The notes under the pieces are model-generated. The model saw only the letters and a program-made list of their open reading frames with translations, had not been told where the DNA came from and ran no database searches. The position numbers and the translations under genes were made by a program. From the NCBI GenBank assembly GCA_012964435.1, contig DTTX01000011.1, positions 1 through 57,555 of the forward strand: a DNA stretch of 57,555 nucleotides, given 5' to 3'. Every line of letters begins with the position of its first letter. Position 1 is the stretch's first letter. Origin of the DNA: Mesonia sp. GTDB lineage: Bacteria > Bacteroidota > Bacteroidia > Flavobacteriales > Flavobacteriaceae. Positions 6,886 to 28,688 of the stretch are shown here, piece by piece.

Positions 6886-6930
6886 CCTGACAATTATCAT
6901 TTTTAGAAAGCTATTGCTATTGCAACTTTG
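6886..6930 (+). promoter_or_regulatory. CRP/FNR-type operator and promoter of the ccoI unit
   Basis: The operator CCTGACAATTATCATTTTTA has a TGACA-AT-TATCA core (6888-6899). CAACTTTG (6923-6930) serves as the -7 box, with its first base exactly 35 bp after the first T of the operator core. The same geometry recurs at four other promoters in the window. Because the -7 box covers the GTG at 6930, translation probably begins at ATG 6954. Confidence 0.8.
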
Positions 6931-6953
6931 TGCATTCAATATTAAGAGAAGAG

Positions 6954-9344
6954 ATGCAACAAACTTGTTTTCATTGTGGGAGCGATTGCGGGAAATCGCC
7001 TATTGTGTTTGACGAGAAAAACTTTTGCTGTCATGGCTGCCAAACTGTTTATGAAATTTTTTCAACGAATAATCTATACTGTTATTACGATCTTCAATCC
7101 TCTCCTGGAGCGATTCCGCAAGAGATTGAAGGCAAATACGATTATCTCGATCATCCTGATATTATTGAAAAATTAGTTGAATTTAACGACGGAATCATCC
7201 AGATCGTTAATCTCTACATTCCGCATATGCATTGTAGTTCTTGCATTTGGATCTTAGAGAATTTAAATCGACTTCAACCTGAAATTAAAAGTTCACAAGT
7301 CAACTTTCCGAAGAAAACCGTTCGCATTACTTTTAAAACTAAAAACTTCAACTTAAAAGAAGTCGTCAAACTATTAAGTACCATTGGTTACGAACCTTAT
7401 ATAAGTTTAAATGATTATGCTGAAGGAAAAAAGCAAGTAGACCGCAGCTTGATCTACAAATTAGGCATTGCCGGTTTCGCTTTTGGGAACGTGATGTTCT
7501 TATCGTTTCCAGAATATTTTGAAGTTTCAGAATATTGGCTCGAGCAATATAAGTATCTGTTTCGTGGTTTGATGTTTGCCTTTTCGTTACCGGTAGTTTT
7601 TTATGCCGCCCAAGAGTATTTTATTTCGGCCTATAAAGGTTTGCGCTCCAAAATTCTGAATATTGATGTTCCTATCGCATTAGGGATTTTAGTGCTTTTT
7701 TTGAGAAGTTCAGCAGAAATTTTTACAGATACGGGAACAGGTTTTTTCGATAGCCTTACCGGTTTGGTGTTCTTTTTATTACTGGGGAAATTTTTTCAGC
7801 AAAAAACCTATTCTTTCTTATCGTTTGAGCGCGATTACAAATCTTATTTTCCGATTGCAGTAACCAAAATTTCTAAGCTGAATGGAGAAACGAAAGAAGA
7901 AAATATTCAGGTATATGAAATTAAAGAAGGCGATCGTTTACTCATTAGAAATGCCGAATTGTTGCCGGTCGATAGTATTTTAATTTCCGGGAAAGGGCAA
8001 ATCGATTACAGTTTTGTAACGGGAGAAAGTGAACCGGTAACCAAAGTAAGCGGAGATAAACTTTTTGCCGGCGGAAAGCAATTAGCGGGCGCGATTGAAG
8101 TAGAAGCGCTCAAATCTGTAGAGCAAAGTTACCTTACACAATTGTGGAGTAACGATGTGTTTGCTAAAGATAAAGAACAGGGTTTTGTAGGTATTACCAA
8201 TGCGATTAGTAAATACTTCACTTGGGCAGTTTTAAGTATTGCGGTATTGGCGACAAGTTATTGGTTGGTTGCCGATAGTAGTTTGGCGATCAATGTACTT
8301 ACTTCGGTATTGATCATTGCTTGCCCTTGTGCATTGGCATTATCGACTCCTTTTGCCTTAGGAAATATGTTACGCATTTTTGGTCGACAAAAATTTTACT
8401 TGAAAAATGCGAATGTAATTGAAAAGTTAGCCCGAATCGATACTCTAATTTTCGATAAAACAGGAACCATTACAACCAACAAAAAAAGTTCGATTGCTTA
8501 TGAAGGGATGGCACTTTCTGAAGAAGAAGAATCTTTATTGAAAAATACTTTACGTTCTTCAAACCATCCGTTAAGTCGAGCTTTGTATGATTTTTTAGCC
8601 GAACAAGATATTCAAACCTTAGACGATTTTGAAGAAATTACCGGGAAGGGAATGCACGCCAAAAAAGCTGAAAATTCTATCGATGTGGGTTCAGCTAAAT
8701 TTGTAGGAAATGAAGCTGAAACCGATACATTAGCAACCTCTGTTCACGTAAAAACCAACGATACGTATAAAGGGAAGTATATTTTTCATAATCAATATCG
8801 GGAAGGTGTAAAAGACTTGTTTCAGCAGCTAAAAAAAGAGTTTAATTTAATCATTCTTTCGGGTGATAATCAGGGAGAAAAAGCCTATTTGCAACAATTA
8901 CTTCCGCAGGGAACCGATATGTTGTTCAACCAAAAACCAGAAGATAAACTCAATTATATTCAAACACTTCAGCAAGAAGGTAAAAATGTGGTGATGATCG
9001 GCGACGGACTCAATGATGCCGGAGCTTTAGCACAAAGCGATGTAGGTATTTCTATAGCAGAAAATGTAAACGTATTTTCTCCCGCTTGCGATGCTATTTT
9101 AGAAGCCGGACAGTTTTCAAAAATCAATGCGTTTATTCAGGCAGCAAAACAAACCGTAGTGATCATTAAAGCGAGTTTTACCTTGTCGTTTATCTATAAT
9201 GTAATCGGTTTATATTTTGCAGTTACGGGACAATTATCTCCCATTATTGCAGCGATTTTAATGCCGTTAAGCTCGATAAGTGTGTTGGTTTTTGTAACCG
9301 TTCTTACAAACTTGAAAGGACGAAAACTGTTTAAAAAAATGTAA
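6954..9344 (+). CDS. ccoI: Copper-translocating P-type ATPase, CcoI/FixI type
   Basis: CcoI exports copper from the cytoplasm for assembly of the cbb3 oxidase. In the frame numbered from GTG 6930 the protein shows an N-terminal Cys-rich metal site (CFHCGSDC...CCHGC), an HMA domain with MHCSSC (Cys102, Cys105), membrane helices, TGES, the transmembrane CPC (465-467), the phosphorylation motif DKTGT (Asp509) and GDGLNDA. I prefer ATG 6954 over GTG 6930 because the promoter -7 box ends at 6930. The PdxH-like gene starts 2 bp after the stop, and the cbb3 structural genes follow. The upstream operator predicts induction at low oxygen. Confidence 0.93.
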   Translation: MQQTCFHCGSDCGKSPIVFDEKNFCCHGCQTVYEIFSTNNLYCYYDLQSSPGAIPQEIEGKYDYLDHPDIIEKLVEFNDGIIQIVNLYIPHMHCSSCIWILENLNRLQPEIKSSQVNFPKKTVRITFKTKNFNLKEVVKLLSTIGYEPYISLNDYAEGKKQVDRSLIYKLGIAGFAFGNVMFLSFPEYFEVSEYWLEQYKYLFRGLMFAFSLPVVFYAAQEYFISAYKGLRSKILNIDVPIALGILVLFLRSSAEIFTDTGTGFFDSLTGLVFFLLLGKFFQQKTYSFLSFERDYKSYFPIAVTKISKLNGETKEENIQVYEIKEGDRLLIRNAELLPVDSILISGKGQIDYSFVTGESEPVTKVSGDKLFAGGKQLAGAIEVEALKSVEQSYLTQLWSNDVFAKDKEQGFVGITNAISKYFTWAVLSIAVLATSYWLVADSSLAINVLTSVLIIACPCALALSTPFALGNMLRIFGRQKFYLKNANVIEKLARIDTLIFDKTGTITTNKKSSIAYEGMALSEEEESLLKNTLRSSNHPLSRALYDFLAEQDIQTLDDFEEITGKGMHAKKAENSIDVGSAKFVGNEAETDTLATSVHVKTNDTYKGKYIFHNQYREGVKDLFQQLKKEFNLIILSGDNQGEKAYLQQLLPQGTDMLFNQKPEDKLNYIQTLQQEGKNVVMIGDGLNDAGALAQSDVGISIAENVNVFSPACDAILEAGQFSKINAFIQAAKQTVVIIKASFTLSFIYNVIGLYFAVTGQLSPIIAAILMPLSSISVLVFVTVLTNLKGRKLFKKM

Positions 9345-9346
9345 AG

Positions 9347-9952
9347 ATGAGTCAAGAGCATAATCCTTTACAAGAATTTCAAACCTGGTTTTATGAAGTA
9401 GAAAAATCTCAGAAAATAGGTGAAGTAAATGCGATGTTGCTCACGACTATAGGAGAAGATGCTTGCCCAAAAAGCCGAATGGTTTTGCTGAAGCGTTTTA
9501 CGTGGGAAGGTTTTTTGTTTTTTACCAATTTTAAAAGTGAAAAAGCAAGAGCAATTGCCAGAAACAAGCGGGTGAGTTTGCATTTTAATTGGCAGGCTGC
9601 AGATCGGGAAATTTATATTCAAGGAAAAGCAGAAAAATTACCTCGCTCAATTTCTGAAGCATATTTTGAACAGCGTCCCAGAGGAAGTCAAATTGGCGCT
9701 TGGGCTTCAGAGCAGAGCAAAGCGATTTCTTCAAGAAGTATTCTAGAAACCAATTTGAAAAGTTTTGAAGAACAATTTCAGCAGCAAAGCATTCCAATGC
9801 CGAAACATTGGGGAGGTTATTTAGTAAAACCGGAAGCTTTCTATTTTATACACTATTCTTCAGTCGGTATTCGCAAAACTATTCAATATCAATTAGATAA
9901 AAATTACACATGGAGTAAACACGTTAGGCATTGCTACGATTTATTCTTTTGA
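9347..9952 (+). CDS. PdxH-like flavoprotein, degenerate at both ends
   Basis: The central part clearly belongs to the pyridoxine/pyridoxamine 5'-phosphate oxidase family: NAMLLTTIGEDACPKSRMVLLK, GFLFFTNFKSEKARAIARN, EIYIQGKAEKLP, YFEQRPRGSQIGAWASEQS and WGGYLVKPE. The N-terminal helix that usually precedes NPLQEF is missing. The C-terminal block, normally reading like FWQGRxxRLHDR...ERLAP, aligns at equal length here as FIHYSSVGIRKT...VRHCYDLFF. The Arg and His of the substrate-binding RLH triad and the RLAP end are therefore gone. It may be a repurposed FMN-binding protein or a decaying gene. It follows ccoI by 2 bp and should share its mRNA. Confidence 0.7.
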   Translation: MSQEHNPLQEFQTWFYEVEKSQKIGEVNAMLLTTIGEDACPKSRMVLLKRFTWEGFLFFTNFKSEKARAIARNKRVSLHFNWQAADREIYIQGKAEKLPRSISEAYFEQRPRGSQIGAWASEQSKAISSRSILETNLKSFEEQFQQQSIPMPKHWGGYLVKPEAFYFIHYSSVGIRKTIQYQLDKNYTWSKHVRHCYDLFF

Positions 9953-9953
9953 A

Positions 9954-9989
9954 GAAGTTCAAATTGAAGCTGAAACTGAAGTTGAAATA
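9954..9989 (+). repeat. Imperfect 6-bp tandem repeat
   Basis: Six units run GAAGTT, CAAATT, GAAGCT, GAAACT, GAAGTT, GAAATA, starting 1 bp after the stop of the PdxH-like gene. Confidence 0.8.
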
Positions 9990-10021
9990 AGATTATTAGA
10001 AATTAATAGTAATCGCTGCAA

Positions 10022-10146: not shown

Positions 10147-10154
10147 TTCCCAAA

Positions 10155-10199
10155 CCTGACAAATGTCATTTTTTAAGAAAGCCTTCACATTTACTTTTG
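10155..10199 (+). promoter_or_regulatory. CRP/FNR-type operator and promoter of the ccoS-NOQP operon
   Basis: CCTGACAAATGTCATTTTTT contains the perfect palindrome TGACA-AA-TGTCA (10157-10168). The -7 box TACTTTTG starts at 10192, again 35 bp from the first operator T. There is no TTG -33 element at the expected place, as expected for an activator-dependent promoter. The site centre is about 33 bp upstream of the -7 centre, or near -40. Confidence 0.85.
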
Positions 10200-10216
10200 A
10201 ACCATAATAGAGAGTT

Positions 10217-10420
10217 ATGAGTGTTATTTATGTTTTACTAGCCATTAGCATTACCGTTGCCATCGTTTTTTTCGTGGCATTTATTCTTTCGGTAAAAAGC
10301 GGGCAATATGACGATGTGTATACACCATCGGTACGTATGCTTTTTGAAGACGAGCTGGTAAAAGATCCCAATACCAAGAAAAATCAAAAACAAGTATTAA
10401 CTAAAGACAAACAATCATAA
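10217..10420 (+). CDS. ccoS: cbb3 oxidase assembly protein CcoS
   Basis: A 67-residue protein with one N-terminal membrane helix (MSVIYVLLAISITVAIVFFVAFILSV), then the CcoS/FixS pattern of a short acidic stretch (KSGQYDDVYTPSVRMLFEDEL). CcoS is needed for cofactor insertion into cbb3 oxidase. It is the first gene after the operator and ends 2 bp before ccoNO. Confidence 0.93.
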   Translation: MSVIYVLLAISITVAIVFFVAFILSVKSGQYDDVYTPSVRMLFEDELVKDPNTKKNQKQVLTKDKQS

Positions 10421-10422
10421 AA

Positions 10423-12621
10423 ATGGAAATGGATCAGTTTTATTACGACAATAAGATCGTAAAAAAATTCTTGTACGCTACGATTTTTTGGGGAATCGTA
10501 GGGATGTCTGTAGGGCTTCTCATAGCGTTTATGTTTTTATTTCCCAATCTAACCGATGGGATTTCGTGGCTAAGTTTTGGTCGTTTACGGCCGTTACACA
10601 CCAATGCCGTAATTTTTGCCTTTGTAGGAAACGCCATATTTGCCGGAGTATATTACTCTTTGCAGCGTTTGCTAAAAACCAGAATGGCCAGCGATGCTTT
10701 AAGTAATTTTAATTTCTGGGGTTGGCAATTAATTATTGTAGCGGCAGCGATCACCCTTCCGTTAGGTTATACTTCTTCTAAAGAATATGCCGAATTAGAA
10801 TGGCCAATCGATATTGCGATTGCTTTAGTTTGGGTAGCGTTTGGTGTGAATATGATCTGGACGATCTTTAAAAGAAGACAACGCCATTTATATGTAGCTA
10901 TTTGGTTTTACTTGGCAACTTTCGTAACCGTAGCGGTACTTCATATTTTTAATAATATCGAATTGCCGGTAAGTGCATTAAAAAGTTATTCGGTTTATGC
11001 AGGAGTACAAGATGCATTGGTACAATGGTGGTACGGGCATAACGCGGTAGCATTTTTCTTAACCACACCGTTCTTAGGTTTAATGTACTATTTTGTACCG
11101 AAAGCCGCTAATCGTCCAGTATATTCTTATCGTTTATCAATTGTTCACTTCTGGTCCTTGATTTTTATTTACATCTGGGCAGGACCTCACCATTTATTAT
11201 ATTCAGCTTTACCAGATTGGGCGCAAAACTTAGGAGTTGCTTTTTCTGTAATGCTTATCGCTCCGTCTTGGGGTGGGATGATCAACGGATTATTAACTCT
11301 TCGCGGTGCTTGGGATAAAGTAAGAACAGATCCTGTTTTAAAATTTATGGTGGTAGCGATTACCGGTTACGGGATGGCAACTTTTGAAGGGCCAATGTTA
11401 TCACTTAAAAATATCAACGCCGTTGCTCACTTTAGCGACTGGGTAATTGCACACGTTCACGTAGGAGCTTTAGCGTGGAATGGTTTCTTAACCTTCGGAA
11501 TGGTGTATTGGTTAGTACCAAAATTGGTGAAAAAAGATCTATGGTCAACCAAATTGGCTAACGGGCATTTCTGGATTGGAACCTTAGGAATCATTATGTA
11601 TGCATTGCCAATGTATGTAGCAGGATTCACACAAGCTTCTATGTGGAAACAATTTAATCCTGACGGAAGTTTAGTTTACGGTAACTTCTTAGAGACCGTT
11701 CAAGAAATTATCCCAATGTATTGGATGCGTGCCATCGGTGGTAGTTTATACATCTTAGGAGCTATCGTCATGTTATATAACATTTTAAGAACTGTAAAAG
11801 CAGGAAGCACAGTAACCGATGAGTTAGCAGAAGCAGCTCCACTTGCAAAAGTAACTCACAAACGTGTGGCTGGTGAAGGTTACCATACTTGGTTAGAAAG
11901 AAGACCGGTAAAATTAACCATCTACGCAACGATCGCAATTTTAATTGGTGGTGCGGTTCAAATCATACCAACTTTGATGATCGATTCTAACATTCCAACC
12001 ATTACCAGTGTAAAACCTTACACGCCATTAGAGTTAGAAGGTAGAGATTTATATATCAGAGAAAGTTGCGTGTCTTGTCACTCACAAATGATTCGACCTT
12101 TTAGAAGTGAAGTAGAACGTTATGGTGAATATTCTAAAGCAGGAGAATATGTGTACGACCATCCATTTTTATGGGGAAGTAAACGTACAGGACCCGATTT
12201 ATTTAGAGTAGGAGGAAAGTATTCAGACAACTGGCACTTTAATCACTTCTATGATCCGCAAACTACTTCTTCAGGTTCGATCATGCCAAGTTATAAATGG
12301 CTCATTAAAAATGAACACGATCGTTCACAAACCGAAGATAAAATGCGAGCAATGGTCACTTTGGGAGTTCCTTACACCGAAGAAGAAATTGCCAACGCAC
12401 AACAATGGATGGAAGAGCAGGCTGCTCAAATAGAACAAAATCTGTACTCAGATCCCGATTTTGCTGAAAGTTATGAAGCCGATAAAAAGTTTGCGAAAGA
12501 AAACGGACTCGATTTCGTAGAGATGAAAGATCGTGAAGTCATCGCACTTATCGCCTACATTCAACGATTAGGGACCGATATTAAAATAAAAGAAGCTAAC
12601 CAAGAAGTAAGTTCAAACTAA
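10423..12621 (+). CDS. ccoNO: cbb3 cytochrome oxidase subunits I and II fused (CcoN-CcoO)
   Basis: The catalytic core of the high-affinity terminal oxidase, reducing oxygen to water with electrons from cytochrome c. Residues about 1-470 are the CcoN haem-copper domain with twelve hydrophobic helices and the expected histidine motifs (LRPLHTNAVIFAF, WWYGHNAVAFFLTTP, WAGPHHLLY, HVHVGALAWNG). Residues about 490-732 are CcoO: a membrane anchor (KLTIYATIAILIGGAVQIIP) and a monohaem cytochrome c domain with CVSCH (Cys549, Cys552, His553). The fusion replaces two separate genes of proteobacteria. ATG 10423 follows ccoS by 2 bp. Confidence 0.96.
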   Translation: MEMDQFYYDNKIVKKFLYATIFWGIVGMSVGLLIAFMFLFPNLTDGISWLSFGRLRPLHTNAVIFAFVGNAIFAGVYYSLQRLLKTRMASDALSNFNFWGWQLIIVAAAITLPLGYTSSKEYAELEWPIDIAIALVWVAFGVNMIWTIFKRRQRHLYVAIWFYLATFVTVAVLHIFNNIELPVSALKSYSVYAGVQDALVQWWYGHNAVAFFLTTPFLGLMYYFVPKAANRPVYSYRLSIVHFWSLIFIYIWAGPHHLLYSALPDWAQNLGVAFSVMLIAPSWGGMINGLLTLRGAWDKVRTDPVLKFMVVAITGYGMATFEGPMLSLKNINAVAHFSDWVIAHVHVGALAWNGFLTFGMVYWLVPKLVKKDLWSTKLANGHFWIGTLGIIMYALPMYVAGFTQASMWKQFNPDGSLVYGNFLETVQEIIPMYWMRAIGGSLYILGAIVMLYNILRTVKAGSTVTDELAEAAPLAKVTHKRVAGEGYHTWLERRPVKLTIYATIAILIGGAVQIIPTLMIDSNIPTITSVKPYTPLELEGRDLYIRESCVSCHSQMIRPFRSEVERYGEYSKAGEYVYDHPFLWGSKRTGPDLFRVGGKYSDNWHFNHFYDPQTTSSGSIMPSYKWLIKNEHDRSQTEDKMRAMVTLGVPYTEEEIANAQQWMEEQAAQIEQNLYSDPDFAESYEADKKFAKENGLDFVEMKDREVIALIAYIQRLGTDIKIKEANQEVSSN

Positions 12622-12632
12622 AACCAAAAACC

Positions 12633-12818
12633 ATGTTGAAGTTTATAAAAGGACATATGGAAACCATCGATGGGGTAGAAGTTTACCCAATGATTTCCTT
12701 ACTCATATTTTTCATCTTCTTCGTAGCCTTATTCTGGTGGGTTTTCACTGCCAAAAAAGATTACATTAAAGAAGTAAGTAACATTCCGTTAGATACCAAA
12801 AAAGATTCAGCCTTATGA
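12633..12818 (+). CDS. ccoQ: cbb3 oxidase small subunit CcoQ-like
   Basis: A 61-residue protein with a single membrane helix (MISLLIFFIFFVALFWWVFTA) followed by a charged tail, matching CcoQ/FixQ in size, topology and position. It lies 11 bp after ccoNO, and its end overlaps the start of ccoP (ATGA), implying coupled translation. CcoQ stabilises the oxidase complex. Sequence conservation in this family is low, so context carries much of the call. Confidence 0.85.
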   Translation: MLKFIKGHMETIDGVEVYPMISLLIFFIFFVALFWWVFTAKKDYIKEVSNIPLDTKKDSAL

Positions 12819-13774
12819 AAAGTTTAGCCTCATACCTTCGCGTATTCCTGTTCTTAGTAATTGGGTACTTATTAATCGAATATACGGTAGATGTGCCAGA
12901 AGGTTCTGTTTTTACTACGTATCCGTTAGCTTGGTTAGTTCTAGGGATTGCCGGTTTATTTGCGGTCGCCATAGAACTTTCTGTGGCAGCATTGCAAAAT
13001 GTACTTTTTAGGTCTTTAGATGAAGAAGCCAAAGCAAGATACTTGGCAGCAGAAAAAGAAAGCAATGCCAAACGTTATGCTTGGTTCAGAAAAACGTATA
13101 ACAAATTAGTAGATCGAAAACCTATCGAAGAGGAAGGAGAAATTATCCTTGACCATAATTACGATGGTATTAAAGAGTTAGATAATAACCTTCCGCCGTG
13201 GTGGTTATACGGTTTCTATGCAACGATGGTTTTTGCAGTAATTTATTTGGCTCGTTTCCATATTTTTCAAGACTACAATCAGATTGAAGAATATGAAGCT
13301 GAAGTAATTGAAGCCAAAATTGCGATTGCAGAATACAAGAAAACAGCTAAGAATTTAGTCGATGTGAATACGGTTGAATTATTAACCGATGAAGCAGATT
13401 TAATTGCCGGAAACAACATTTTCCAAACCAATTGTGCCGCTTGTCATAAAGCCGATGGAGGCGGAGGGATTGGCCCTAACCTAACCGATAAATATTGGAT
13501 TTTAGGTGGCGGAATCAAAAATGTATTTAGAACCGTAACCGAAGGAGGTCGTTCTGGTAAAGGAATGGTGCCTTGGGAAGGAACTTTAAAACCGGTCGAA
13601 CGAGCACAAGTTGCCAGCTATGTAATTTCGCTTCAAGGAACAACACCGGCAGAACCTAAAGAACCCCAAGGAGAACTTTGGGTAGAAGAAGGTGAAGCCG
13701 CAGAGGCCGATGAGGTTGAACGTGCAGAAAACACTACCTCTGTCGATACGATTCAAGTAAACGATGAAATTTAA
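12815..13774 (+). CDS. ccoP: cbb3 oxidase subunit CcoP with a single c-type haem
   Basis: CcoP brings electrons to the catalytic subunit. The 319 residues hold two N-terminal helices (about 1-55), a cytoplasmic segment, the cbb3 N-terminal motif DGIKELDNNLPPWWLYGFYATMVFAVIYL (about 125-155), and one cytochrome c domain with CAACH (Cys207, Cys210, His211) and a GMVPW Met-ligand region. Proteobacterial CcoP usually has two haems; only one CxxCH exists here. The last 35 residues are a strongly acidic tail (EEGEAAEADEVERAE). The start overlaps ccoQ by 4 bp. Confidence 0.94.
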   Translation: MKSLASYLRVFLFLVIGYLLIEYTVDVPEGSVFTTYPLAWLVLGIAGLFAVAIELSVAALQNVLFRSLDEEAKARYLAAEKESNAKRYAWFRKTYNKLVDRKPIEEEGEIILDHNYDGIKELDNNLPPWWLYGFYATMVFAVIYLARFHIFQDYNQIEEYEAEVIEAKIAIAEYKKTAKNLVDVNTVELLTDEADLIAGNNIFQTNCAACHKADGGGGIGPNLTDKYWILGGGIKNVFRTVTEGGRSGKGMVPWEGTLKPVERAQVASYVISLQGTTPAEPKEPQGELWVEEGEAAEADEVERAENTTSVDTIQVNDEI

Positions 13775-13778
13775 TTAA

Positions 13779-13842
13779 GTCACCTCGAGCGGAGTCGAGA
13801 GGTCTCAACTCCGCTTGTCTTGAGTCTAGTCGAAAGGCTCGA
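13779..13842 (+). repeat. Dispersed repeat, type A, with inverted half
   Basis: CACCTCGAGCGGAGTCGAGA is followed by its near-inverse: AGCGGAGT (13788-13795) pairs with ACTCCGCT (13808-13815), extended by GAGA/TCTC. A further type A-like stretch (CTTGAGTCTAGTCGAAAGG) follows. Related copies lie at 16084 and 20046. Confidence 0.8.
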
Positions 13843-13865
13843 ACAATAAAAAATTTAAAACTGTG

Positions 13866-13895
13866 CGTCATGCTGAACTTGATTCAGCATCTCAT
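13866..13895 (+). repeat. Dispersed hairpin repeat, type B
   Basis: CGTC, then the hairpin ATGCTGAA-CTTGA-TTCAGCAT (13870-13890), then CTCAT. Six copies of this type, in both orientations, occur between 13.8 and 20.3 kb. Confidence 0.8.
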
Positions 13896-13967
13896 CCAGA
13901 TTGATTTTGATCAAAGCAAGAAATTTTTTCAAAATAAACTTAGAATAGAACCTAACACCTCAACAAC

Positions 13968-15389
13968 GTGGAAACTCCAGAAAACGAAAAATTCAGAGAT
14001 TCTATAGGAACCATTAATCAAGAAGGTAAACGTTCTTGGATTTTTCCTAAAAAGCCTGACGGGAAGTACTACAAATACAGAACTTGGGTGAGTTATGGGT
14101 TATTGTTGTTTCTTTTTGCTGCACCATTTGTCAAAATTAACGGCAATCAGTTTTTGATGTTCAACGTGTTGGAGCGTCGCTTCAATATTTTCGGATTTCC
14201 ATTTTGGCCACAAGATTTTCATCTGTTCGTGATTTCGATGATCATCGGCGTGGTATTTATCATTCTGTTTACAGTTGCCTTTGGTCGAATTTTCTGCGGA
14301 TGGATTTGTCCACAAACCATCTTTTTAGAAATGGTATTCCGTAGAATAGAATATTGGATTGAAGGCGATCGCGGTAAGCAAATTCGTCTAGCCAAACAAG
14401 CCTGGAATGCAGAGAAAATAAGAAAACGAGTTTTAAAATGGTTCATCTTTTTTATTATCAGTTTTTTGATTGCCAATATTTTCTTGGCCTATTTAATTGG
14501 TAGTGACGAACTCATTAGCTATATAACGGAAGGCCCCGGTGCTCACACAAGCACACTCATCTCTCTTCTTATATTTACCGGGGTCTTCTATTTTATTTTC
14601 GCCTGGTTTAGAGAGCAGGTATGTATTATTGCTTGTCCTTACGGTCGTTTGCAAGGCGTTTTATTAGATAAAAAATCGATCGTTGTTGCTTACGATTATA
14701 AACGTGGCGAAAAAGAAGAAGGAAGAGCAAAATTCAGAAAAAACGAAAATCGTGCTGCTACCGGAAAAGGAGATTGTATCGATTGTTCACAATGCGTGCA
14801 AGTTTGCCCAACCGGAATCGATATTAGAAACGGTACACAACTCGAATGTGTAAATTGTACCGCTTGTATCGACGCTTGTGATGCAATGATGGAAAAAGTA
14901 GATCTTCCAAAAGGTTTAATTCGATATGCAAGTGAAGAGAATATAGCCGAAAAGAAAAAATTTACTTTCAATCCAAGATTAAAAGCGTACACGGCAGTTT
15001 TAGTGATTTTAATCGGTGTTTTAACCGGAATGCTTTTTCTGCGAAACGATGTTGAAGCAACGGTTTTACGTTTGCCGGGACAATTATACGAGAAGAAAGG
15101 TAACAACGTAATTCGGAATGTGTACACTTTCAAACTCGTGAACAAAACTGTGGAACCTATTGAAGATGTTCATTTTAAATTGATTTCGCATAGCGGAAAA
15201 ATTGAATTGGTTACCCACGAAAATTTTGAAGTTCCTAAACAAGGATTATCAGAAGGAACGCTGTTTATCGATATCAGTCAAGCCGCTTTAGAAAGCGATA
15301 AAGAACGACTGAAAATAGGAGTTTACAGTGGCGAAAAACTTATTGAAACCGCCAAAGCCGCATTTTTGGGTCCACGTAGTTTTAGGTAG
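13968..15389 (+). CDS. ccoG: cbb3 oxidase accessory ferredoxin CcoG
   Basis: CcoG (FixG/RdxA) is a membrane iron-sulfur protein that reduces copper for cbb3 assembly. The 473 residues begin at GTG, chosen because METPENEKFRDSIGTI is the family's conserved N-terminus and no in-frame ATG is nearby. Membrane helices lie near residues 45, 85, 160 and 195, with redox cysteines in CGWICPQT and CIIACPYGR. Two 4Fe-4S clusters are indicated by CIDCSQCVQVCP and CVNCTACIDACD, followed by another helix and a C-terminal Ig-like domain. It lies 193 bp after ccoP, with repeats between. Confidence 0.96.
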   Translation: METPENEKFRDSIGTINQEGKRSWIFPKKPDGKYYKYRTWVSYGLLLFLFAAPFVKINGNQFLMFNVLERRFNIFGFPFWPQDFHLFVISMIIGVVFIILFTVAFGRIFCGWICPQTIFLEMVFRRIEYWIEGDRGKQIRLAKQAWNAEKIRKRVLKWFIFFIISFLIANIFLAYLIGSDELISYITEGPGAHTSTLISLLIFTGVFYFIFAWFREQVCIIACPYGRLQGVLLDKKSIVVAYDYKRGEKEEGRAKFRKNENRAATGKGDCIDCSQCVQVCPTGIDIRNGTQLECVNCTACIDACDAMMEKVDLPKGLIRYASEENIAEKKKFTFNPRLKAYTAVLVILIGVLTGMLFLRNDVEATVLRLPGQLYEKKGNNVIRNVYTFKLVNKTVEPIEDVHFKLISHSGKIELVTHENFEVPKQGLSEGTLFIDISQAALESDKERLKIGVYSGEKLIETAKAAFLGPRSFR

Positions 15390-15393
15390 AATG

Positions 15394-15423
15394 CGTCATT
15401 CCGTGCTTGAAACGGAATCTCAT
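15394..15423 (+). repeat. Dispersed hairpin repeat, type B
   Basis: CGTC, then ATTCCGT-GCTTGAA-ACGGAAT, then CTCAT, placed between ccoG and ccoH. Confidence 0.75.
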
Positions 15424-15477
15424 TCTGAATTAGAAAAATGCAATAGAATCAAAGAAAACTAAAAAAAATATATAAAA

Positions 15478-15927
15478 ATGAAAAAATTAAATTGGGGCGT
15501 AGGCATCGTGATTACCATCGCTTGTTTTATAGGCTTTATCATGTTTTTTGTGATAAAAATGAGTACCGATAAAAAGTATGATCACGATTTGGTGACCGAA
15601 GAGTATTACAAACAAGAATTAGCCTATCAAGATCAAATCGATGCGCAGCAAAATTCAGCGCGTTTAGTTAAAAATATTCAAGTTGAAGTCAATGCGGAAG
15701 GAATCCAGATTATGTTTCCTTCAGAAAAAAAAGACGTTAAAGGAGAAGTAAGTTTATACCGACCTTCAAACAAAAAGTTAGATTTAGAAATTCCTATTAG
15801 TTTAGAAAATCAGCAAATGATAATTCCTGCTGAAAAATTAGTGGAAGGAAAATACAAACTCTCCATCAACTGGAAATCTAACGGTACCACTTATTTGTAT
15901 AAAAAAGATTTACAGATTAGAAATTAG
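15478..15927 (+). CDS. ccoH: FixH/CcoH family protein
   Basis: A 149-residue protein with one N-terminal membrane helix (WGVGIVITIACFIGFIMFFVIKM) followed by the FixH signature KKYDHDLVTEEYYKQELAYQDQIDAQQNS and a beta-rich exported domain. FixH/CcoH helps assemble the cbb3 complex. It lies 88 bp after ccoG, with a hairpin repeat between, and is probably on the same transcript. Confidence 0.92.
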   Translation: MKKLNWGVGIVITIACFIGFIMFFVIKMSTDKKYDHDLVTEEYYKQELAYQDQIDAQQNSARLVKNIQVEVNAEGIQIMFPSEKKDVKGEVSLYRPSNKKLDLEIPISLENQQMIIPAEKLVEGKYKLSINWKSNGTTYLYKKDLQIRN

Positions 15928-16008
15928 ATATTTCGTTTCATTGCAGACTTGATTAACTACGTTGAATCTTCGATTTCGGAATTATATTCTAAACAAAAGA
16001 TCTGGACA

Positions 16009-16038
16009 ATGAGACCCTGAATCGAGTTCAGGGTGACG
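16009..16038 (-). repeat. Dispersed hairpin repeat, type B, reversed
   Basis: ATGAG, ACCCTGAA-TCGAG-TTCAGGGT (16014-16034), GACG. It is the reverse complement of the type B pattern. Confidence 0.8.
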
Positions 16039-16083
16039 ATACTCGAAATAATTTATAAAACACGTTCATAAATTAATGAACAT

Positions 16084-16148
16084 GCCACTTCGAGCGGAGT
16101 CGAGAGGTTTTTTTAGCTATTGCAAAGTCTCAAGATCTCGACTCCGCT
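16084..16148 (+). repeat. Dispersed repeat, type A, with inverted partner
   Basis: GCCACTTCGAGCGGAGTCGA at 16084-16103 is followed by a T run. AGCGGAGTCGAGA (16093-16105) is perfectly inverted as TCTCGACTCCGCT (16136-16148), giving a 13-bp stem with a 30-nt loop. Confidence 0.8.
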
Positions 16149-16169
16149 AGATCTGACAATGAAGATGAG

Positions 16170-16199
16170 CGTCATTCCAGACTTGATCTGGAATCTCAT
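16170..16199 (+). repeat. Dispersed hairpin repeat, type B
   Basis: CGTC, ATTCCAGA-CTTGA-TCTGGAAT (16174-16194), CTCAT. It has the same CTTGA loop as the copy at 13866. Confidence 0.8.
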
Positions 16200-16240
16200 C
16201 AGAGTAAGTAGTTTATTAGGTTTTACTCATAAATACAATT

Positions 16241-16963
16241 ATGCTTTATTCAGCTTTCATATTAGGATTATTAGGCAGTTTCCACTGCGTGGGGATGTGC
16301 GGTCCTATTGCATTTATGCTTCCGCTGGATCGTAAGAGCAAATTCAAAAAAATACTACAATTAAGTCTTTACCATTTAGCCAGATTATTCACTTATAGCT
16401 TTATTGGGTTGCTATTTGGGTTTTTTGGTAAAGGCTTATTTTTGTTTGGTATTCAACAAAAAATATCGATCGCTATCGGTGTTTTAATGATCTTGGTCGT
16501 GGTTATTCCGCATCAAACTTTTAATAAATATAATTTCTCTAGACCCATTTTTAAACTCATCTCTAAAGTAAAATCGGCTTTAGGAAAAGAGCTACAAAAG
16601 AAAACTCCCGATACATTTTTGACCATTGGTTTTCTAAACGGATTTTTGCCTTGTGGTTTATTGTATATGGCTATTTTCGGTTCGTTTGCTTATGAAAGTA
16701 TCCCGATGAGTTTACTCTATATGTTGCTGTTTGGTTTAGGTACTATTCCGTTAATGACTACGATGGTATTGGCGGGTAATTTTTTAAGTATTTCTTTTCG
16801 ACAAAAAATACAAAAAGCGATTCCCGTTTTTGTGGTAATCGTAGGTTTATTGTTTGTGTTACGTGGTTTAGGCTTAGGTATTCCTTATGTTTCTCCCAAA
16901 GCCATTCATACCACCGAAAAAGTTTCTTCTCAAATAGATTGCCAGGTTATTTCTGGAAAATAA
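16241..16963 (+). CDS. TauE/SafE-like membrane protein of the cbb3 locus (CcoH-neighbour type)
   Basis: A 240-residue protein with about six membrane helices. The family motif GLLGSFHCVGMCGPIAFMLPL lies at residues 7-27, with a second repeat-like block GFLNGFLPCGLLYMAIFGSFAYES near residue 130, as in the COG2836 branch of the TauE/SafE and DsbD-like families. The paired Cys motifs (HCVGMC and PCG) suggest metal or redox handling, probably copper supply, since the gene closes the cco cluster. That function is inferred from position. Confidence 0.85.
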   Translation: MLYSAFILGLLGSFHCVGMCGPIAFMLPLDRKSKFKKILQLSLYHLARLFTYSFIGLLFGFFGKGLFLFGIQQKISIAIGVLMILVVVIPHQTFNKYNFSRPIFKLISKVKSALGKELQKKTPDTFLTIGFLNGFLPCGLLYMAIFGSFAYESIPMSLLYMLLFGLGTIPLMTTMVLAGNFLSISFRQKIQKAIPVFVVIVGLLFVLRGLGLGIPYVSPKAIHTTEKVSSQIDCQVISGK

Positions 16964-18700: not shown

Positions 18701-18743
18701 TGCGAAATGTCATATTTTAAAAAGTGTTGAGGTCATAGTTTTG
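18701..18743 (+). promoter_or_regulatory. CRP/FNR-type operator (weaker) and promoter of the CoA-transferase gene
   Basis: TGCGAAATGTCATATTTTAA at 18701-18720 keeps the right half TGTCA and the T-rich flank, but the left half is altered (TGCGA for TGACA). The -7 box TAGTTTTG starts at 18736, exactly 35 bp after the operator's first T, as at the other four promoters. Confidence 0.65.
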
Positions 18744-18769: not shown

Positions 18770-20038
18770 ATGCTACCATTTATTTCAGCCGAAGAAGCTG
18801 TCGCAAATGTACAATCGGGAAATCGTGTATTTTTTCAGGGAGCGGCAATGACGCCAAAAGTGATTATTAAAGCTTTATGCGAACGCTACCAAGAATTATC
18901 TGATATAGAATTGGTGCAAATGCACACCGAAGGCGATGCCTTGTATGCACAAGAACCCTATCATAAAAGTTTTCACGTTAATAGTTGTTTTGTGGGCGGT
19001 AATGTGCGCCGAACCGTAAATTCTGAACACGGCGATTATATTCCTATTTTTTTAAGTGAAATGCATTTGTTGTTTAAGCGTGGTATTTTGCCTTTAGATG
19101 TAGCGTTTATTCAGGTTTCGCCGCCAGATAAACACGGGTATTGCTCGTTAGGAACATCGATCGATGTGACGATCACGGCCATACAATGTGCTAAAAAGGT
19201 AATCGCGCAAGTGAATCCGAAAGTGCCAAGAACGCACGGTGATGGAATTATTCACGTGAGTAAAATTGATGCAGCTGTTGAAGTAAATGAACCAATTCAC
19301 GAAGTATTTACGGTAGAACCTTCTGAAGTTGAAAAGCAAATTGGTTACCACGTGGCGCAATTGGTGGAAGATGGCGCGACTTTACAAATGGGAATCGGCG
19401 GAATCCCAAATGTGGTTTTGAATAATTTACACAACCATAAAGGTTTGGGAATACATACCGAAATGTTTTCTGACGGAGTTTTGCCACTAATTGAAAAGGG
19501 AATTATTACCGGAGAAAATAAACTAGTGAAAAACGGAAAAATTGTGACTTGCTTTGCTATCGGTTCGCCTAAATTATATGAATTTTTAGACGACAATCCA
19601 CTAGTGCATTTTAAAGAAGCAGCTTATACCAACGATACTTCTATTATTCGAAGAAACCCAAAAGTTACGGCGATAAATAGCGCGATAGAAATTGATTTGA
19701 CCGGACAAGTTTGCGCCGATACGATCGGGAAAATGCAATATTCGGGAGTTGGCGGACAAATGGACTTTATTCGCGGAGCTTCTCTTTCTGAAGGCGGTAA
19801 AGCGATTATTGCGATGCCATCGGCTACGGCTAAAGGAATTTCGAAGATCGTTCCGTTTTTAAAAGAAGGAGCCGGCGTTACCACTACACGTGCGCACGTA
19901 CATTATATCGCTACTGAAAATGGTGTGGTTAATTTATACGGAAAGAGTTTAAAACAACGCGCAAAAGCTTTAATTTCTATTGCTCATCCCGATCATCAGG
20001 AGAGTTTAGAAAAAGCGATGTACGAACGTTTTAAATAA
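18770..20038 (+). CDS. Acetyl-CoA hydrolase/CoA-transferase family protein
   Basis: A 422-residue protein of the family that includes 4-hydroxybutyrate CoA-transferase and acetyl-CoA:carboxylate CoA-transferases. Evidence is the two-domain length, the GMGG-like motif LQMGIGGIPNVVL, the block GLGIHTEMFSDG with the catalytic Glu, and GGQMDFIRGASLSEGGKAIIAMPS. The reaction moves CoA between acyl groups. The natural acceptor cannot be read from sequence, but acetate formation under low oxygen fits the operator upstream. A bidirectional terminator follows. Confidence 0.88.
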   Translation: MLPFISAEEAVANVQSGNRVFFQGAAMTPKVIIKALCERYQELSDIELVQMHTEGDALYAQEPYHKSFHVNSCFVGGNVRRTVNSEHGDYIPIFLSEMHLLFKRGILPLDVAFIQVSPPDKHGYCSLGTSIDVTITAIQCAKKVIAQVNPKVPRTHGDGIIHVSKIDAAVEVNEPIHEVFTVEPSEVEKQIGYHVAQLVEDGATLQMGIGGIPNVVLNNLHNHKGLGIHTEMFSDGVLPLIEKGIITGENKLVKNGKIVTCFAIGSPKLYEFLDDNPLVHFKEAAYTNDTSIIRRNPKVTAINSAIEIDLTGQVCADTIGKMQYSGVGGQMDFIRGASLSEGGKAIIAMPSATAKGISKIVPFLKEGAGVTTTRAHVHYIATENGVVNLYGKSLKQRAKALISIAHPDHQESLEKAMYERFK

Positions 20039-23105: not shown

Positions 23106-23223
23106 TTTAGGAGAATTTTTTAGGTGAGAACTAAACTTCTACAGGTCTTTTAAGTTATTCATTTGGTTAAGTACATTTCAATACTTTAATTGTCGAAAAA
23201 CTATGCTTTAAATTACAAAGTTT

Positions 23224-25195: not shown

Positions 25196-25202
25196 CTTCT
25201 GT

Positions 25203-25466: not shown

Positions 25467-25565
25467 TTTTAATGAAATTGAAATTAATGTTTAATAAAAT
25501 TAAAACAAAAATGAATAAAATTAAAATTTATATAGATTTATTTGATGTTTGATGGATTTTTCAAA

Positions 25566-25610
25566 CCTGACCAATATCATTTTTTAAGCCGTGCTTCAGC
25601 AGTAATTTTA
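25566..25610 (+). promoter_or_regulatory. CRP/FNR-type operator and promoter of the membrane protein-haemoglobin unit
   Basis: CCTGACCAATATCATTTTTT contains TGACC-AA-TATCA (25568-25579). TAATTTTA at 25603-25610 serves as the -7 box (last G replaced by A), with its first base 35 bp after the operator's first T. Confidence 0.8.
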
Positions 25611-25635
25611 CGCTATAATTTTAAAACAAAAGAAG

Positions 25636-25929
25636 ATGTCTGTGTATCAAAAAGTTTACGGTGAGTTTAAAGAAATGTATTACGGTAGTGCCGCAATTGG
25701 TATTATTGCCTCTAGTTGTTTAGGAGCTATCGCTGCGATGTTTATTTTAATGACCGGTCACGGCGTGTGGCAAATGTTACAATTGTTTTTAGTGGTCATG
25801 ATCAGTATGGGTTACAATACTGCGGTTTTAGCATGTTTACCGGCAAAACAAGTATTTAATTCTTTAGTAGGAAGTGTTTCTGTAAATTTATTATTTATTT
25901 TGTACTACGGAATTATGATGATGCTTTAA
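25636..25929 (+). CDS. Small three-helix membrane protein, unknown
   Basis: A 97-residue, very hydrophobic protein with three predicted helices (YGSAAIGIIASSCLGAIAAMFILMTG, MLQLFLVVMISMGYNTAVLACL, FNSLVGSVSVNLLFILYYGIMMML). It has no signal peptide and no motif I recognise. It is the first gene after a low-oxygen-type operator and ends 6 bp before the truncated haemoglobin gene. It therefore probably works in oxygen, nitric oxide or respiratory physiology; that is inference from context only. Confidence 0.75.
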   Translation: MSVYQKVYGEFKEMYYGSAAIGIIASSCLGAIAAMFILMTGHGVWQMLQLFLVVMISMGYNTAVLACLPAKQVFNSLVGSVSVNLLFILYYGIMMML

Positions 25930-25935
25930 CAGCTT

Positions 25936-26319
25936 ATGAAAGAATTAGAAAATAGAGCCGATGTAGAATTACTGGTACATCGGTTTTACGATAAAGTAAG
26001 AGCCAATCCCGAGATTGGCTCTTTTTTTAATGATACGATTACCGATTGGGATCACCATTTAGAGAAGTTGAGTGACTTTTGGGAAAGTAATTTATTTTAT
26101 GCCGGTAAATATCGTGGCAGACCCGGTCGAGCGCATATTATGGTCGATTATAATTTTAACCATCAAATAGAAGCCAAGCATTTTGGTGTCTGGCTGAATC
26201 TTTGGGTAAATACTTTAGATGAATATTTTGAAGGAGAAGTTGCCGAACGCGCTAAGTTTAATGCTAGAAATATGGCGACTAATTTTCAGATGAAAATTTT
26301 TATGGCAAGACCGAAGTAG
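25936..26319 (+). CDS. Group III truncated haemoglobin
   Basis: A 127-residue 2/2 globin. The N-terminal helix reads ENRADVELLVHRFYDKVRANPEIGSFFND, then DWDHHLEKLSDFWESNLFYAGKYRGRP, and the proximal haem ligand is His in IEAKHFGVWLNLW (about residue 80), a hallmark of group III. These proteins bind oxygen or NO. Co-transcription with the small membrane protein and the operator upstream suggest a role at low oxygen. Confidence 0.92.
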   Translation: MKELENRADVELLVHRFYDKVRANPEIGSFFNDTITDWDHHLEKLSDFWESNLFYAGKYRGRPGRAHIMVDYNFNHQIEAKHFGVWLNLWVNTLDEYFEGEVAERAKFNARNMATNFQMKIFMARPK

Positions 26320-26351
26320 TTTCAAGTTAAATTTTAATGGCGTTTATATAA

Positions 26352-26394
26352 AAAAGGAAACACCCTTCCGTTTAATTAAAAACCTCAGGGTGTT
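26352..26394 (-). terminator. Terminator of the usp-hemN operon
   Basis: On the minus strand AACACCCT (26394-26387) pairs with AGGGTGTT (26366-26359), with a 20-nt loop, followed by TCCTTTTTTT. It lies between convergent genes. Confidence 0.7.
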
Positions 26395-26426
26395 CACCAA
26401 CCTACTAATAAACTTAACCTAAATTA

Positions 26427-27788
26427 TTAAACCGTCATCGAGAATAATCTTGTTTCGGGCTTATTTCTTTGCAAGCGTAAATCGAACGCCATACATATAT
26501 TTCTTACAAAAGGTCTTCCTTTTTCTGTCACTTTTAAGGAGTTGGGTTGTATTTCGATCAATAGATCGTTCTCCATTTCTTCCAGGCGTTCTAAAACTTC
26601 AGGCAGTTCAAAAAAATCATCCTGAAAAGAAAGTGAAGTTTCTAGGTGGCACATTAAATTTAGAATGTGCTTTCTAATAATTAAATCTTCATCGTTGAGT
26701 AAATGTCCGCGAAATACCGGCAATTCCCCTTCGTTAATACTTTGCTGATATTCTTCTATACTTTTTGAATTTTGCGCAAAACCGTACCAACTGTCGCTAA
26801 TAGAAGAAACTCCCAAGCCGATCATTAATTGCGTTTTAGAAGCCGAATACCCCATAAAATTTCGGTGTAATTTTTTTGCTTCTAGCGATTGGTAAAGATC
26901 ATCTGTTTTCAAAGCAAAATGATCCATTCCAATTTCGATGTAACCCATTTCTTCCAGCAACTCTTTGCCTAATTGGTATTGCGCGCGTTTGGTTTCTGCA
27001 GAAGGTAAATGCGCTTCGCTGTAGCCGCGTTGCCCGTTTCCTTTAATCCAAGGTACGTGTGCATAACTGTAAAACGCAATGCGATCGGGCATTAATTCTT
27101 TCGTTTTTAAGATGGTATTTTCAACCGCTTCAATACTTTGAAATGGCAAACCGAAAATAATATCGTGACTCACAGAAGTAAATCCAACTTCACGCGCCAT
27201 TGCTGTCGCATCTTTTACTTTTTCAAAAGGCTGAATTCTGTGAATGGCTTGTTGTACTTTTAGATCGTAATCTTGCACACCATAACTCACGCGTCTAAAA
27301 CCTACATCGTAAAGCGCCTCTAAATGAGCTCGAGTAGTATTATTGGGATGACCTTCAAAACTAAATTGATAATCTTCAGCTAGATCGGCATCTTTTAAAA
27401 TTCCTTTAATCAGGTGTTGTAAATTTTCAGGAGAAAAAAACGTTGGCGTTCCGCCGCCTAAATGAATCTCTTTAATACGAGGTTTTTCCGGTAGAAAAGC
27501 TAAGTATAAATTCCATTCTTTTAGAACCGAAGCTATGTAAGGTTCTTCTACTTCGTGACGTTTGGTGATCCTTTTGTTGCAACCGCAAAACGTGCACATA
27601 CTTTCACAATAAGGTAAATGAATGTAAAGGCTAATACCTTCAGTAGTATTACTTTCTTCAAACGATTCGATGACCGATTTTCTCCAGTTCTGCACAGAAA
27701 AAGTATGATGATCCCAATACGGTACGGTTGGATAACTCGTGTATCGCGGACCCGGAATATTGTATTTTTGTATAAGTGGTTGGCACAT
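26427..27788 (-). CDS. hemN: Oxygen-independent coproporphyrinogen III oxidase
   Basis: HemN converts coproporphyrinogen III to protoporphyrinogen IX without oxygen, using radical SAM chemistry. The 453 residues carry the cluster motif CxxxCxxC (Cys61, Cys65, Cys68, within YCESMCTFCGC), the N-terminal IPGPRYTSYPTVPYW typical of true HemN, GGGTPTF, and the C-terminal HemN domain (MGYSASKTQLMIGLGVSSIS). It follows the universal stress protein gene by 10 bp. That gene's promoter has a low-oxygen-type operator, so haem synthesis would be switched on when oxygen is scarce. Confidence 0.96.
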   Translation of the reverse strand: MCQPLIQKYNIPGPRYTSYPTVPYWDHHTFSVQNWRKSVIESFEESNTTEGISLYIHLPYCESMCTFCGCNKRITKRHEVEEPYIASVLKEWNLYLAFLPEKPRIKEIHLGGGTPTFFSPENLQHLIKGILKDADLAEDYQFSFEGHPNNTTRAHLEALYDVGFRRVSYGVQDYDLKVQQAIHRIQPFEKVKDATAMAREVGFTSVSHDIIFGLPFQSIEAVENTILKTKELMPDRIAFYSYAHVPWIKGNGQRGYSEAHLPSAETKRAQYQLGKELLEEMGYIEIGMDHFALKTDDLYQSLEAKKLHRNFMGYSASKTQLMIGLGVSSISDSWYGFAQNSKSIEEYQQSINEGELPVFRGHLLNDEDLIIRKHILNLMCHLETSLSFQDDFFELPEVLERLEEMENDLLIEIQPNSLKVTEKGRPFVRNICMAFDLRLQRNKPETRLFSMTV

Positions 27789-27798
27789 ATTTCTTCAA

Positions 27799-28617
27799 TT
27801 ATTCGTGTAACACTAAAAACGGAATCTCTTTATGGTAGCTTATTTTCTTTGCCAAAGGATGAAATAAAATATGCTGAAAGAAATTTAAATTCTTCGCCAT
27901 CATGGTGATCATTTGCGTGTCGTGAGAAGTTACAAACGATTGTACGGCTTCTTCTAAAGTATCGTTTCTGGTGTAATGAAAGCTGTGATCTATTTCTAAT
28001 AATTGTTCTTTTAAATAAGCTTTGTTACCTTCTTGTCTTTCTGTAAGATCTTCGCTTTTTTTCGAAAGGTAAAGTACACTTAAAGCAGACTCGTTAAAAT
28101 GGCAAACCTGTTTTAAGGTATGTATTACTTTGTTTTTATACGAGATATTAAAATCTGTAGGAAAAGTGATATTCTTCGGTTCACGATAATTGGCATTTTC
28201 TGGTATGACCAAAACCGGACATTTTACACGAGTGATCACCTCTGTAGAATGGCTTCCTACCGTAGCTTCTTTATAGCCGCTGGCGCCTTGCGTTCCCATC
28301 ACGATAAAATCGATATCACGCTCTTGCACGTGTTCTCGCACCGTATCTACAAAATGACCACGCTCTAGCGAAGTATAAAATTGGTGTTTATTATTAAGTT
28401 GTTGGTTGCCTAAACGTTCTAACAACACTTGAAAAGCGGTTGCCGAATTTTTAGCTTTTACCTGCACGGTCTGCAAGTCTTCTTCATCCTGTTCCCATTC
28501 AGTAGGCTCTACGTGTAAAAAATAAAAATTCGTGTACACGTTCTTAAAAAACGATAACGCATAACTAATAGCGTTCCAAGAGTTTTCAGAAAAATCAGTA
28601 GGCATTAAAATGTTCAT
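27799..28617 (-). CDS. Universal stress protein, tandem-domain type
   Basis: A 272-residue protein with two UspA-like domains. The first (1-145) begins MNILMPTDFSENSWNAISYAL and has an ATP-site pattern (MGTQGASGYKEATVGSHSTEVITRVKCPVLVIPE). The second (about 150-272) is degenerate but ends KKISYHKEIPFLVLHE. USPs are often induced by oxygen limitation. It heads the operon with hemN. Confidence 0.92.
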   Translation of the reverse strand: MNILMPTDFSENSWNAISYALSFFKNVYTNFYFLHVEPTEWEQDEEDLQTVQVKAKNSATAFQVLLERLGNQQLNNKHQFYTSLERGHFVDTVREHVQERDIDFIVMGTQGASGYKEATVGSHSTEVITRVKCPVLVIPENANYREPKNITFPTDFNISYKNKVIHTLKQVCHFNESALSVLYLSKKSEDLTERQEGNKAYLKEQLLEIDHSFHYTRNDTLEEAVQSFVTSHDTQMITMMAKNLNFFQHILFHPLAKKISYHKEIPFLVLHE

Positions 28618-28643
28618 CTTCCTCGTACATTAATTTGATAAAG

Positions 28644-28688
28644 CAAATGTAGATGAAGACTACTTGTTGAAAAATGACAAAAATCAGG
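28644..28688 (-). promoter_or_regulatory. CRP/FNR-type operator and promoter of the usp-hemN operon
   Basis: On the minus strand CCTGATTTTTGTCATTTTTC has the core TGATT-TT-TGTCA (28686 down to 28675). TACATTTG (28651 down to 28644) is a perfect -7 box. Its first base is 35 bp from the operator's first T, the same geometry as on the plus strand elsewhere. Confidence 0.82.

Follow-up and report, generated by a model that had tools for sequence, protein, structure and literature searches.

Operators in a fixed promoter register and a receiver-CRP fusion as their candidate activator in Mesonia and related Flavobacteriaceae

Among described regulatory systems, the FixL-FixJ-FixK cascade of rhizobia and Caulobacterales combines a kinase with a haem-PAS signature, a response regulator and a CRP/FNR-type activator lacking iron-sulphur cysteines, and its targets include the cco/fixNOQP and hemN genes, as set out in parts of PMC4999443 and PMC9104804. 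For Caulobacterales it has been proposed, in part of PMC4999443, that FnrN was lost and that FixK took over its sites, and in Rhizobium the hFixL-FxkR-FixK pathway supplies an alternative two-component input to a FixK-type regulon (parts of PMC4999443 and PMC7888657). A comparable combination occurs in a stretch of 57,555 nucleotides from Mesonia sp., a member of the Flavobacteriaceae (assembly GCA_012964435.1, contig DTTX01000011.1), referred to below as the window, in which five promoters carry a palindromic operator of CRP/FNR type at a fixed distance from the -7 box. The window also encodes a response regulator composed of a receiver and a CRP module, here called the fusion, and a PAS histidine kinase. 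We consider it fairly probable (about 0.7) that an FNR/FixK-type activator uses the five sites as class II operators and that, in this organism, the fusion fills that role together with the putative haem-PAS kinase.

Flavobacteriaceae make up a large share of soil, marine and freshwater communities, and in one of them, Flavobacterium psychrophilum, low oxygen strongly increases the cbb3 oxidase and also raises haem-pathway enzymes, according to part of PMC9723704; the rise of both fits the regulon proposed here. The main text of that paper does not contain the terms 'crp', 'palindrom' or 'fixk', and no operator or regulator for the low-oxygen response was found in the part cited here. A literature search at the level of titles and abstracts, which is no proof of absence, found no description of the operator, of the fusion as its reader or of a Flavobacteriaceae oxygen regulon.

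An earlier note on this DNA had placed the operator starts at 6888, 10157, 18701 and 25568 on the plus strand and at 28686 on the minus strand, and all five were recovered, with the box beginning exactly 35 bp downstream of the operator start in each promoter (Table 1). The description of the boxes as TAnnTTTG-like holds overall, with deviations at the first base of the ccoI box and at the last base of the globin-promoter box. At the core of the operator is TGAY-N4-RTCA, a palindrome of 12 bp that runs into a T-rich stretch; four of the five sites share the longer string reported previously, seen here as ACCTGAY....RTCATTTTT, and inspection of the -33 zone revealed a TTG in none of the five promoters, in line with the same note. 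The two-fold symmetry TGA-N6-TCA, which characterises class II operators of CRP and FNR, is present, with a degenerate 5' half-site in one of the five. This is the CoA-transferase site (GTATGCGAAATGTCATATTTT), which reads TGC instead of TGA, and the TGC is kept at the same promoter, recognised by its flanks, in five related loci (L109, L111, L112, L113 and L114), with TGT found in a sixth genome (G150).

The register is retained in relatives, as the earlier proposal implied. The surroundings of relatives of the fusion gene, comprising 80 loci (L109-L188) of at most 21 kb each and 1.58 Mb in total, contain 662 palindromes of the form TGAY-N4-RTCAT on the two strands. Of the 220 pairs that these palindromes form with an exact TAnnTTTG, 204 have the box at distance 35, the other 16 being spread over the remaining distances from 15 to 60 with none at 34 or 36, and a control on the wrong side yielded 20 cases of TAnnTTTG over 46 distances. 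With 29 different spacings permitted, a search of 60 genomes gave 136 matches, of which 114 fell in the 35-bp register, seven were one base longer and two one base shorter, against five matches of the reversed-pattern control (counted by hand from tables). Near-identical 44-bp matches with one extra spacing base (G036:C9:72887, G036:C21:5 and G050:C30:7150) perhaps represent a repeated element rather than operators.

CRP and FNR bind at class II promoters at position -41.5. Transcription starts mapped in F. psychrophilum put the sigma-A box TAnnTTTG at -12 to -5 (part of PMC9723704) and, because of the 35-bp register, the palindromes of the window would span -47 to -36 and be centred at about -41.5, in agreement with the class II placement near -41 suggested earlier, with starts taken from the mapping of another flavobacterium. 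A rigid register to the -7 box would also be compatible with the conserved string being recognised by an alternative sigma factor as part of the promoter, and not being an operator. This is very improbable, since the -7 box conforms to the usual sigma-A type and the element is both palindromic and, as described below, tracks CRP/FNR-type regulators.

The sites were also scored with a weight matrix built on 414 distinct sites from genera other than that of the window (L115-L188, leaving out L109-L114); the consensus by which these sites were chosen makes the matrix strict. The window sites rank 1, 2, 3, 4 and 7 among about 115,000 positions, with scores of 35.2, 31.8, 31.7, 23.6 and 15.7, the CoA-transferase site being the lowest, and none of 6,000,000 first-order Markov positions reaches 15.7. 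Ranks 5 and 6 (16.2 and 16.1) are occupied by two further places, and below the seventh rank the next score is 0.2. One is a sixth candidate site (TGATATATGTCC) at 5509-5551 on the plus strand, with a box (TATATTTG) also 35 bp away, upstream of a gene for a Por_Secre_tail protein at 5600. The other is the ccoI palindrome read in reverse (6899-6857, minus strand), for which a weak box likewise lies 35 bp away, toward a DUF6134 gene.

In 149 genomes of the family, a search allowing at most one mismatch gave 577 matches in 120 genomes, against seven for the reversed pattern (control counted by hand), and around the fusion gene 439 sites occur in the 1.58 Mb, against 0 and 2 in two Markov simulations. 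The 80 loci carry a median of five sites each and have the appearance of a regulon island with many usp paralogues. Mere similarity by chance in AT-rich DNA could claim support from the Mesonia genome itself, where three mismatches yield 24 places against nine for the reversed control, such that the weak matches are partly noise, and a list of the organism's own regulon compiled from them was rejected as too noisy. For the five sites themselves chance is scarcely credible in view of the counts in the family, the simulated positions and the retention of the sites in relatives.

Exact matches in 296 genomes of the phylum (grouped by hand) occur in 27 of 30 from the family, 1 of 6 from the same order, 8 of 37 from the same class and 4 of the remaining 223, and the reversed control had no exact match in these genomes; the motif is therefore mainly a feature of the family. 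Fusions extend further, being present in 26 of 37 same-class and 1 of 6 same-order genomes at E 1e-50 (hand count), and operators outside the family may differ since the fusion is present there while this form of the motif is rarer. At the level of sequence, the palindrome is established as a family-conserved element in a fixed 35-bp register, upstream of genes for the high-affinity oxidase, a metal pump, haem synthesis, globin and stress proteins.

No regulator had been named in the earlier note, and the candidate lies within the same window. The fusion has 350 residues and shares 99% identity with the corresponding protein of Mesonia mobilis DSM 19841. Its gene, which adjoins the PAS kinase gene, has its end 252 bp upstream of the usp operator. 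In 77 of the 80 loci a same-strand site lies 1000-1400 bp past the start of the fusion gene. The receiver residues D9, D10, D52 and K104 are kept in all 80 relatives, as are E316 and R320, the Glu and Arg expected of the recognition helix. This helix (GIATESLIRTLSAFK) is nearly the same as that (GTATESAIRVLSQFK) of an FNR-like protein of 225 residues which many genomes of the family have in place of the fusion or in addition to it. The residue that we take to correspond to the Ser of the FNR helix is Ile here. Identity over the helix-turn-helix region is 41% between fusion and FNR-like protein and 17-19% with the CRP-like protein C41.

The FNR-like protein carries six cysteines (C4, C7, C29, C53, C59 and C106) that are invariant in 11 of 11 sequences, and C4, C7 and C106 align with cysteines of Aliivibrio fischeri FNR which we take to be the cluster holders. 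Comparison with the NCBIfam model Fnr gave 1.2e-27, yet 97 bits against a cut-off of 228 bits, and among PDB entries FNR was found at 1.9e-22, behind 2gau at 1.3e-25. The fusion does not resemble an iron-sulphur FNR in this respect: Cys is absent from all six of these columns in each of 14 aligned fusions, and two cysteines after residue 130 occur in none of 81. A second FNR-like paralogue (237-261 residues and 30-36% identical, for example G036:C19:16268) exists in several genomes with or without the FNR-like protein.

When compared with solved structures, the PAS domain of the kinase gives 14 matches, led by FixL (7.1e-14), with DosP at 7.5e-13; these two proteins account for the top 11. In the alignment, His67 falls opposite the His of the HD pair in FixL, and Arg88 opposite the Arg of GIGR/GIDR; these FixL residues are presumably the haem ligand and the oxygen-contacting Arg, respectively. 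The aligned His is present in 79 of 79 kinases and the Arg in 77 (one of the 80 loci yielded no kinase), while a second set of 48 loci with 43 scorable PAS domains has the His in 42 and the Arg in 37. As far as primary structure can indicate, the kinase thus has the proximal His and distal Arg that mark FixL. The phospho-accepting His is present in all 79, which is only suggestive of oxygen-dependent autophosphorylation. Genes for a thioredoxin and an AIM24 protein lie divergent from the kinase gene (31363-32479, plus strand).

The motif co-occurs with the two regulators. They were scored as present at best E values of 1e-40 or lower for the FNR-like protein and 1e-75 or lower for the fusion, cut-offs of our own choice with counts transcribed by hand; ten genomes with an FNR-like value between 1e-40 and 1e-30, which match the 237-261-residue paralogue, the fusion or both, were not counted. 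Among the 149 genomes the motif occurs in 35 of 35 with both regulators, 50 of 55 with the FNR-like protein only, 30 of 31 with the fusion only and 5 of 28 with neither, i.e., in 115 of 121 genomes with at least one regulator against 5 of 28 without (Fisher 6e-17, kinship ignored).

Several observations weigh against the fusion and its kinase as the system serving these sites. The presence/absence test ignores phylogeny, and many of the 28 genomes with neither regulator are small or incomplete. Five of these nevertheless carry the motif (G048, G051, G086, G138 and G147, three of them less than 90% complete), while no match is present in six of the genomes that have a regulator (G026, G050, G057, G060, G075 and G128). 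PAS domains with a His at the position considered are common. The base preceding TGA is C in four of the five window sites and A is commoner in FNR genomes, the ratio of C to A being 87:82 where the fusion occurs alone and 63:149 where the FNR-like protein does (odds ratio 2.5, p 2e-5, kinship ignored). As a separator of the two regulators this base was set aside as weakly supported; the usp site has A in the four loci with both regulators (L094-L097).

Two further points in this group concern which protein reads the sites. The 3.05 Mb Mesonia genome is 90.5% complete, so that the missing gene for the FNR-like protein could reflect a gap, and the sites might then be served by an iron-sulphur FNR-like activator overlooked in the draft, with the fusion controlling a different or smaller set of genes, such as usp alone. 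In support, the FNR-like gene is present in 11 of 20 loci picked from motif matches, in seven divergent to ccoI and in four beyond usp, and the genomes scored for it without the fusion mostly carry the motif. We judge this unlikely. At E 1e-30, in a search that covered the two sampled genomes of the window's genus (g1), G000 and G053, and none of the six further Mesonia-type genomes (G149-G154), the FNR-like protein was found in neither, and the 99% completeness of G053 tempers the argument from a gap. Both genomes score as fusion-only, with no match to the paralogue at 1e-30 either. In the window, DUF6134 and not the FNR-like protein is encoded divergently to ccoI, and retention of the motif in the fusion-only genomes speaks against the latter as sole activator, although several of these (G036, G108, G113 and G124) are not clean if the paralogue also reads the sites.

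The genome also encodes other CRP-like proteins, at C41:20629 and, a short one, on C83 (locus L023), and the helix PESLSR of L023, with its E..SR, might read TGA half-sites. That such a protein is the reader is nonetheless distinctly improbable, since the recognition helix of C41 (NSSRVVISRLL) is without the expected Glu and genomes with neither regulator are mostly without the motif. The fusion, with its kinase, remains our favoured candidate for the window.

Table 1. Proposed operators, promoter boxes, target genes and regulators in the window
Feature	Position	Strand	Basis or remark
ccoI operator TGACAATTATCA	6888..6899	+	Same site in other Mesonia genomes; matrix score
ccoI -7 box CAACTTTG	6923..6930	+	35 bp from operator start; likely ccoI ATG at 6954
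Operator of ccoS and cco genes TGACAAATGTCA	10157..10168	+	Scan of own genome; matrix score; other Mesonia genomes
ccoS -7 box TACTTTTG	10192..10199	+	ccoS (67 residues) starts at 10217
Acetyl-CoA hydrolase/transferase operator TGCGAAATGTCA	18701..18712	+	Degenerate 5' half-site, degeneracy kept in relatives
CoA-transferase -7 box TAGTTTTG	18736..18743	+	35-bp distance
Operator ahead of small membrane protein and truncated haemoglobin TGACCAATATCA	25568..25579	+	Matrix score; related loci
Membrane protein-globin -7 box TAATTTTA	25603..25610	+	35-bp distance
usp-hemN operator TGATTTTTGTCA	28675..28686	-	Scan of own genome; matrix score; related loci
usp -7 box TACATTTG	28644..28651	-	35-bp distance
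Target: ccoI, heavy-metal P-type ATPase	6954..9344	+	Family search
Target: ccoS, ccoNO fusion, ccoP, ccoG, ccoH, DsbD-like	10217..16963	+	Family search; probably a single operon
Target: acetyl-CoA hydrolase/transferase family	18770..20038	+	Family search
Target: small membrane protein (no family match) and group III truncated haemoglobin	25636..26319	+	Family and structure searches
Target: usp and hemN	26427..28617	-	Family search
Receiver-CRP fusion response regulator, proposed activator	28938..29990	-	Receiver, cyclic-nucleotide (cNMP)-type fold, HTH_Crp_2
PAS histidine kinase, proposed oxygen sensor	29997..31232	-	FixL-like haem-PAS signature (His67, Arg88)

The low-oxygen gene content described earlier was upheld in that family searches confirmed the identities of the cbb3 oxidase, the heavy-metal P-type ATPase, hemN, usp and the acetyl-CoA hydrolase/transferase. 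For the haemoglobin (25936-26319) the outcome was mixed, since Pfam gave Bac_globin below its cut-off (E 0.0034) while a search of known structures identified a group III truncated haemoglobin (E 4.7e-11).

In relatives, matches precede ccoI, ccoS-NO-P, hemN and usp repeatedly among the 20 loci picked from motif matches, as the note had anticipated, and additional genes behind matches encode a ribosome hibernation factor, Hsp20 and SCO1/SenC. Downstream of sites in the 80 loci are 433 proteins, of which 183 are usp-like, a class over-represented because the loci were fetched by the fusion gene; 22 are like the small membrane protein of the window, four resemble its thioredoxin, one ccoNO and one hemN. 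The other 222 resemble no compared protein of the window (ccoS being outside the comparison) and fall into 34 clusters; among them are S30AE/HPF (30), ccoS recognised by eye (23), Hsp20 (10), DUF2267 (7), pyridoxamine-oxidase-like proteins (4) and multicopper-oxidase-like proteins with a cytochrome c domain (2). Many of these target clusters are without known function: the largest, with 63 proteins, had no Pfam match, and the second largest has 36. The largest is represented by L178:8447 (minus strand, 146 residues), with 62 relatives.

Outside the window, weaker matches in the Mesonia genome precede genes for SCO1/SenC, a metallo-beta-lactamase-rhodanese protein and a protein that we take to be YceI-like, its over-long frame having given no Pfam match; these three sites recur in other Mesonia-type genomes. 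Other weak matches lie ahead of ferredoxin-reductase-like and FabH-like genes, named by eye.

From haem and the oxygen signal, through phosphotransfer and DNA binding, to activation, we infer the following sequence of events. As oxygen falls, the haem of the FixL-like PAS domain would unload and the kinase would become active and phosphorylate Asp52 of the fusion receiver. The fused CRP module would then dimerise on the operator at -41.5 and contact or recruit RNA polymerase, substituting for the absent -33 element. Elsewhere in the family the cysteine-bearing FNR-like protein would read these sites too, with or without the fusion, and where its gene stands divergent to ccoI at the palindrome, as in 7 of the 20 loci, autoregulation is possible. 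In the window's genus the two-component system alone may serve the regulon.

In comparison with the described systems, several differences stand out. The operator TGAY-N4-RTCA differs from the FixK2 box TTGA/C-N6-T/GCAA, as given in part of the literature, and the promoter box is the TAnnTTTG of Bacteroidota. With FNR (A. fischeri, 5cvr and 5e44, and relatives; E. coli) the system shares TGA..TCA half-sites, class II placement and the Glu and Arg of the helix, but the outer TT/AA is absent from the operators and the fusion lacks the cysteines of the FNR-like protein. For a Flavobacteriales member of the CRP/FNR family, perhaps distinct from both proteins considered here, a MalR-like role in sensing carbon availability rather than oxygen has been predicted (part of PMC8510549). 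In the Rhizobium pathway FxkR is reported, in parts of PMC4999443 and PMC7888657, to induce fixK and hence stands one step above the regulon.

The fixed register allows candidate targets to be listed from sequence in each genus, and the natural series of genomes with the FNR-like protein only, with both regulators and with the fusion only bears on how a regulator and its sensor chemistry may be replaced while the binding sites stay. We give about even odds to a family-wide one-step version of the FixL-FixJ-FixK logic, in which a haem-PAS kinase would act directly on a receiver-FixK-like fusion whose operators are shared with FNR, and which would operate alone where the FNR-like protein was not found (31 of 149 genomes by our cut-offs), iron-sulphur being exchanged for haem and the operators and -41.5 register kept. 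The fusion differs from FixJ, defined by a receiver and a LuxR-type helix-turn-helix, in that its output consists of a cNMP fold and HTH_Crp_2, and from FixK, a stand-alone CRP-type protein induced by FixJ, in that its CRP module is joined to the receiver; with receiver and activator in one protein, there is no transcription step from FixJ to fixK. Thus, the kinase carries the FixL PAS signature and the regulator corresponds neither to FixJ, nor to FixK, nor to an iron-sulphur FNR, while the system as a whole would be expected to work like FixL-FixJ-FixK.

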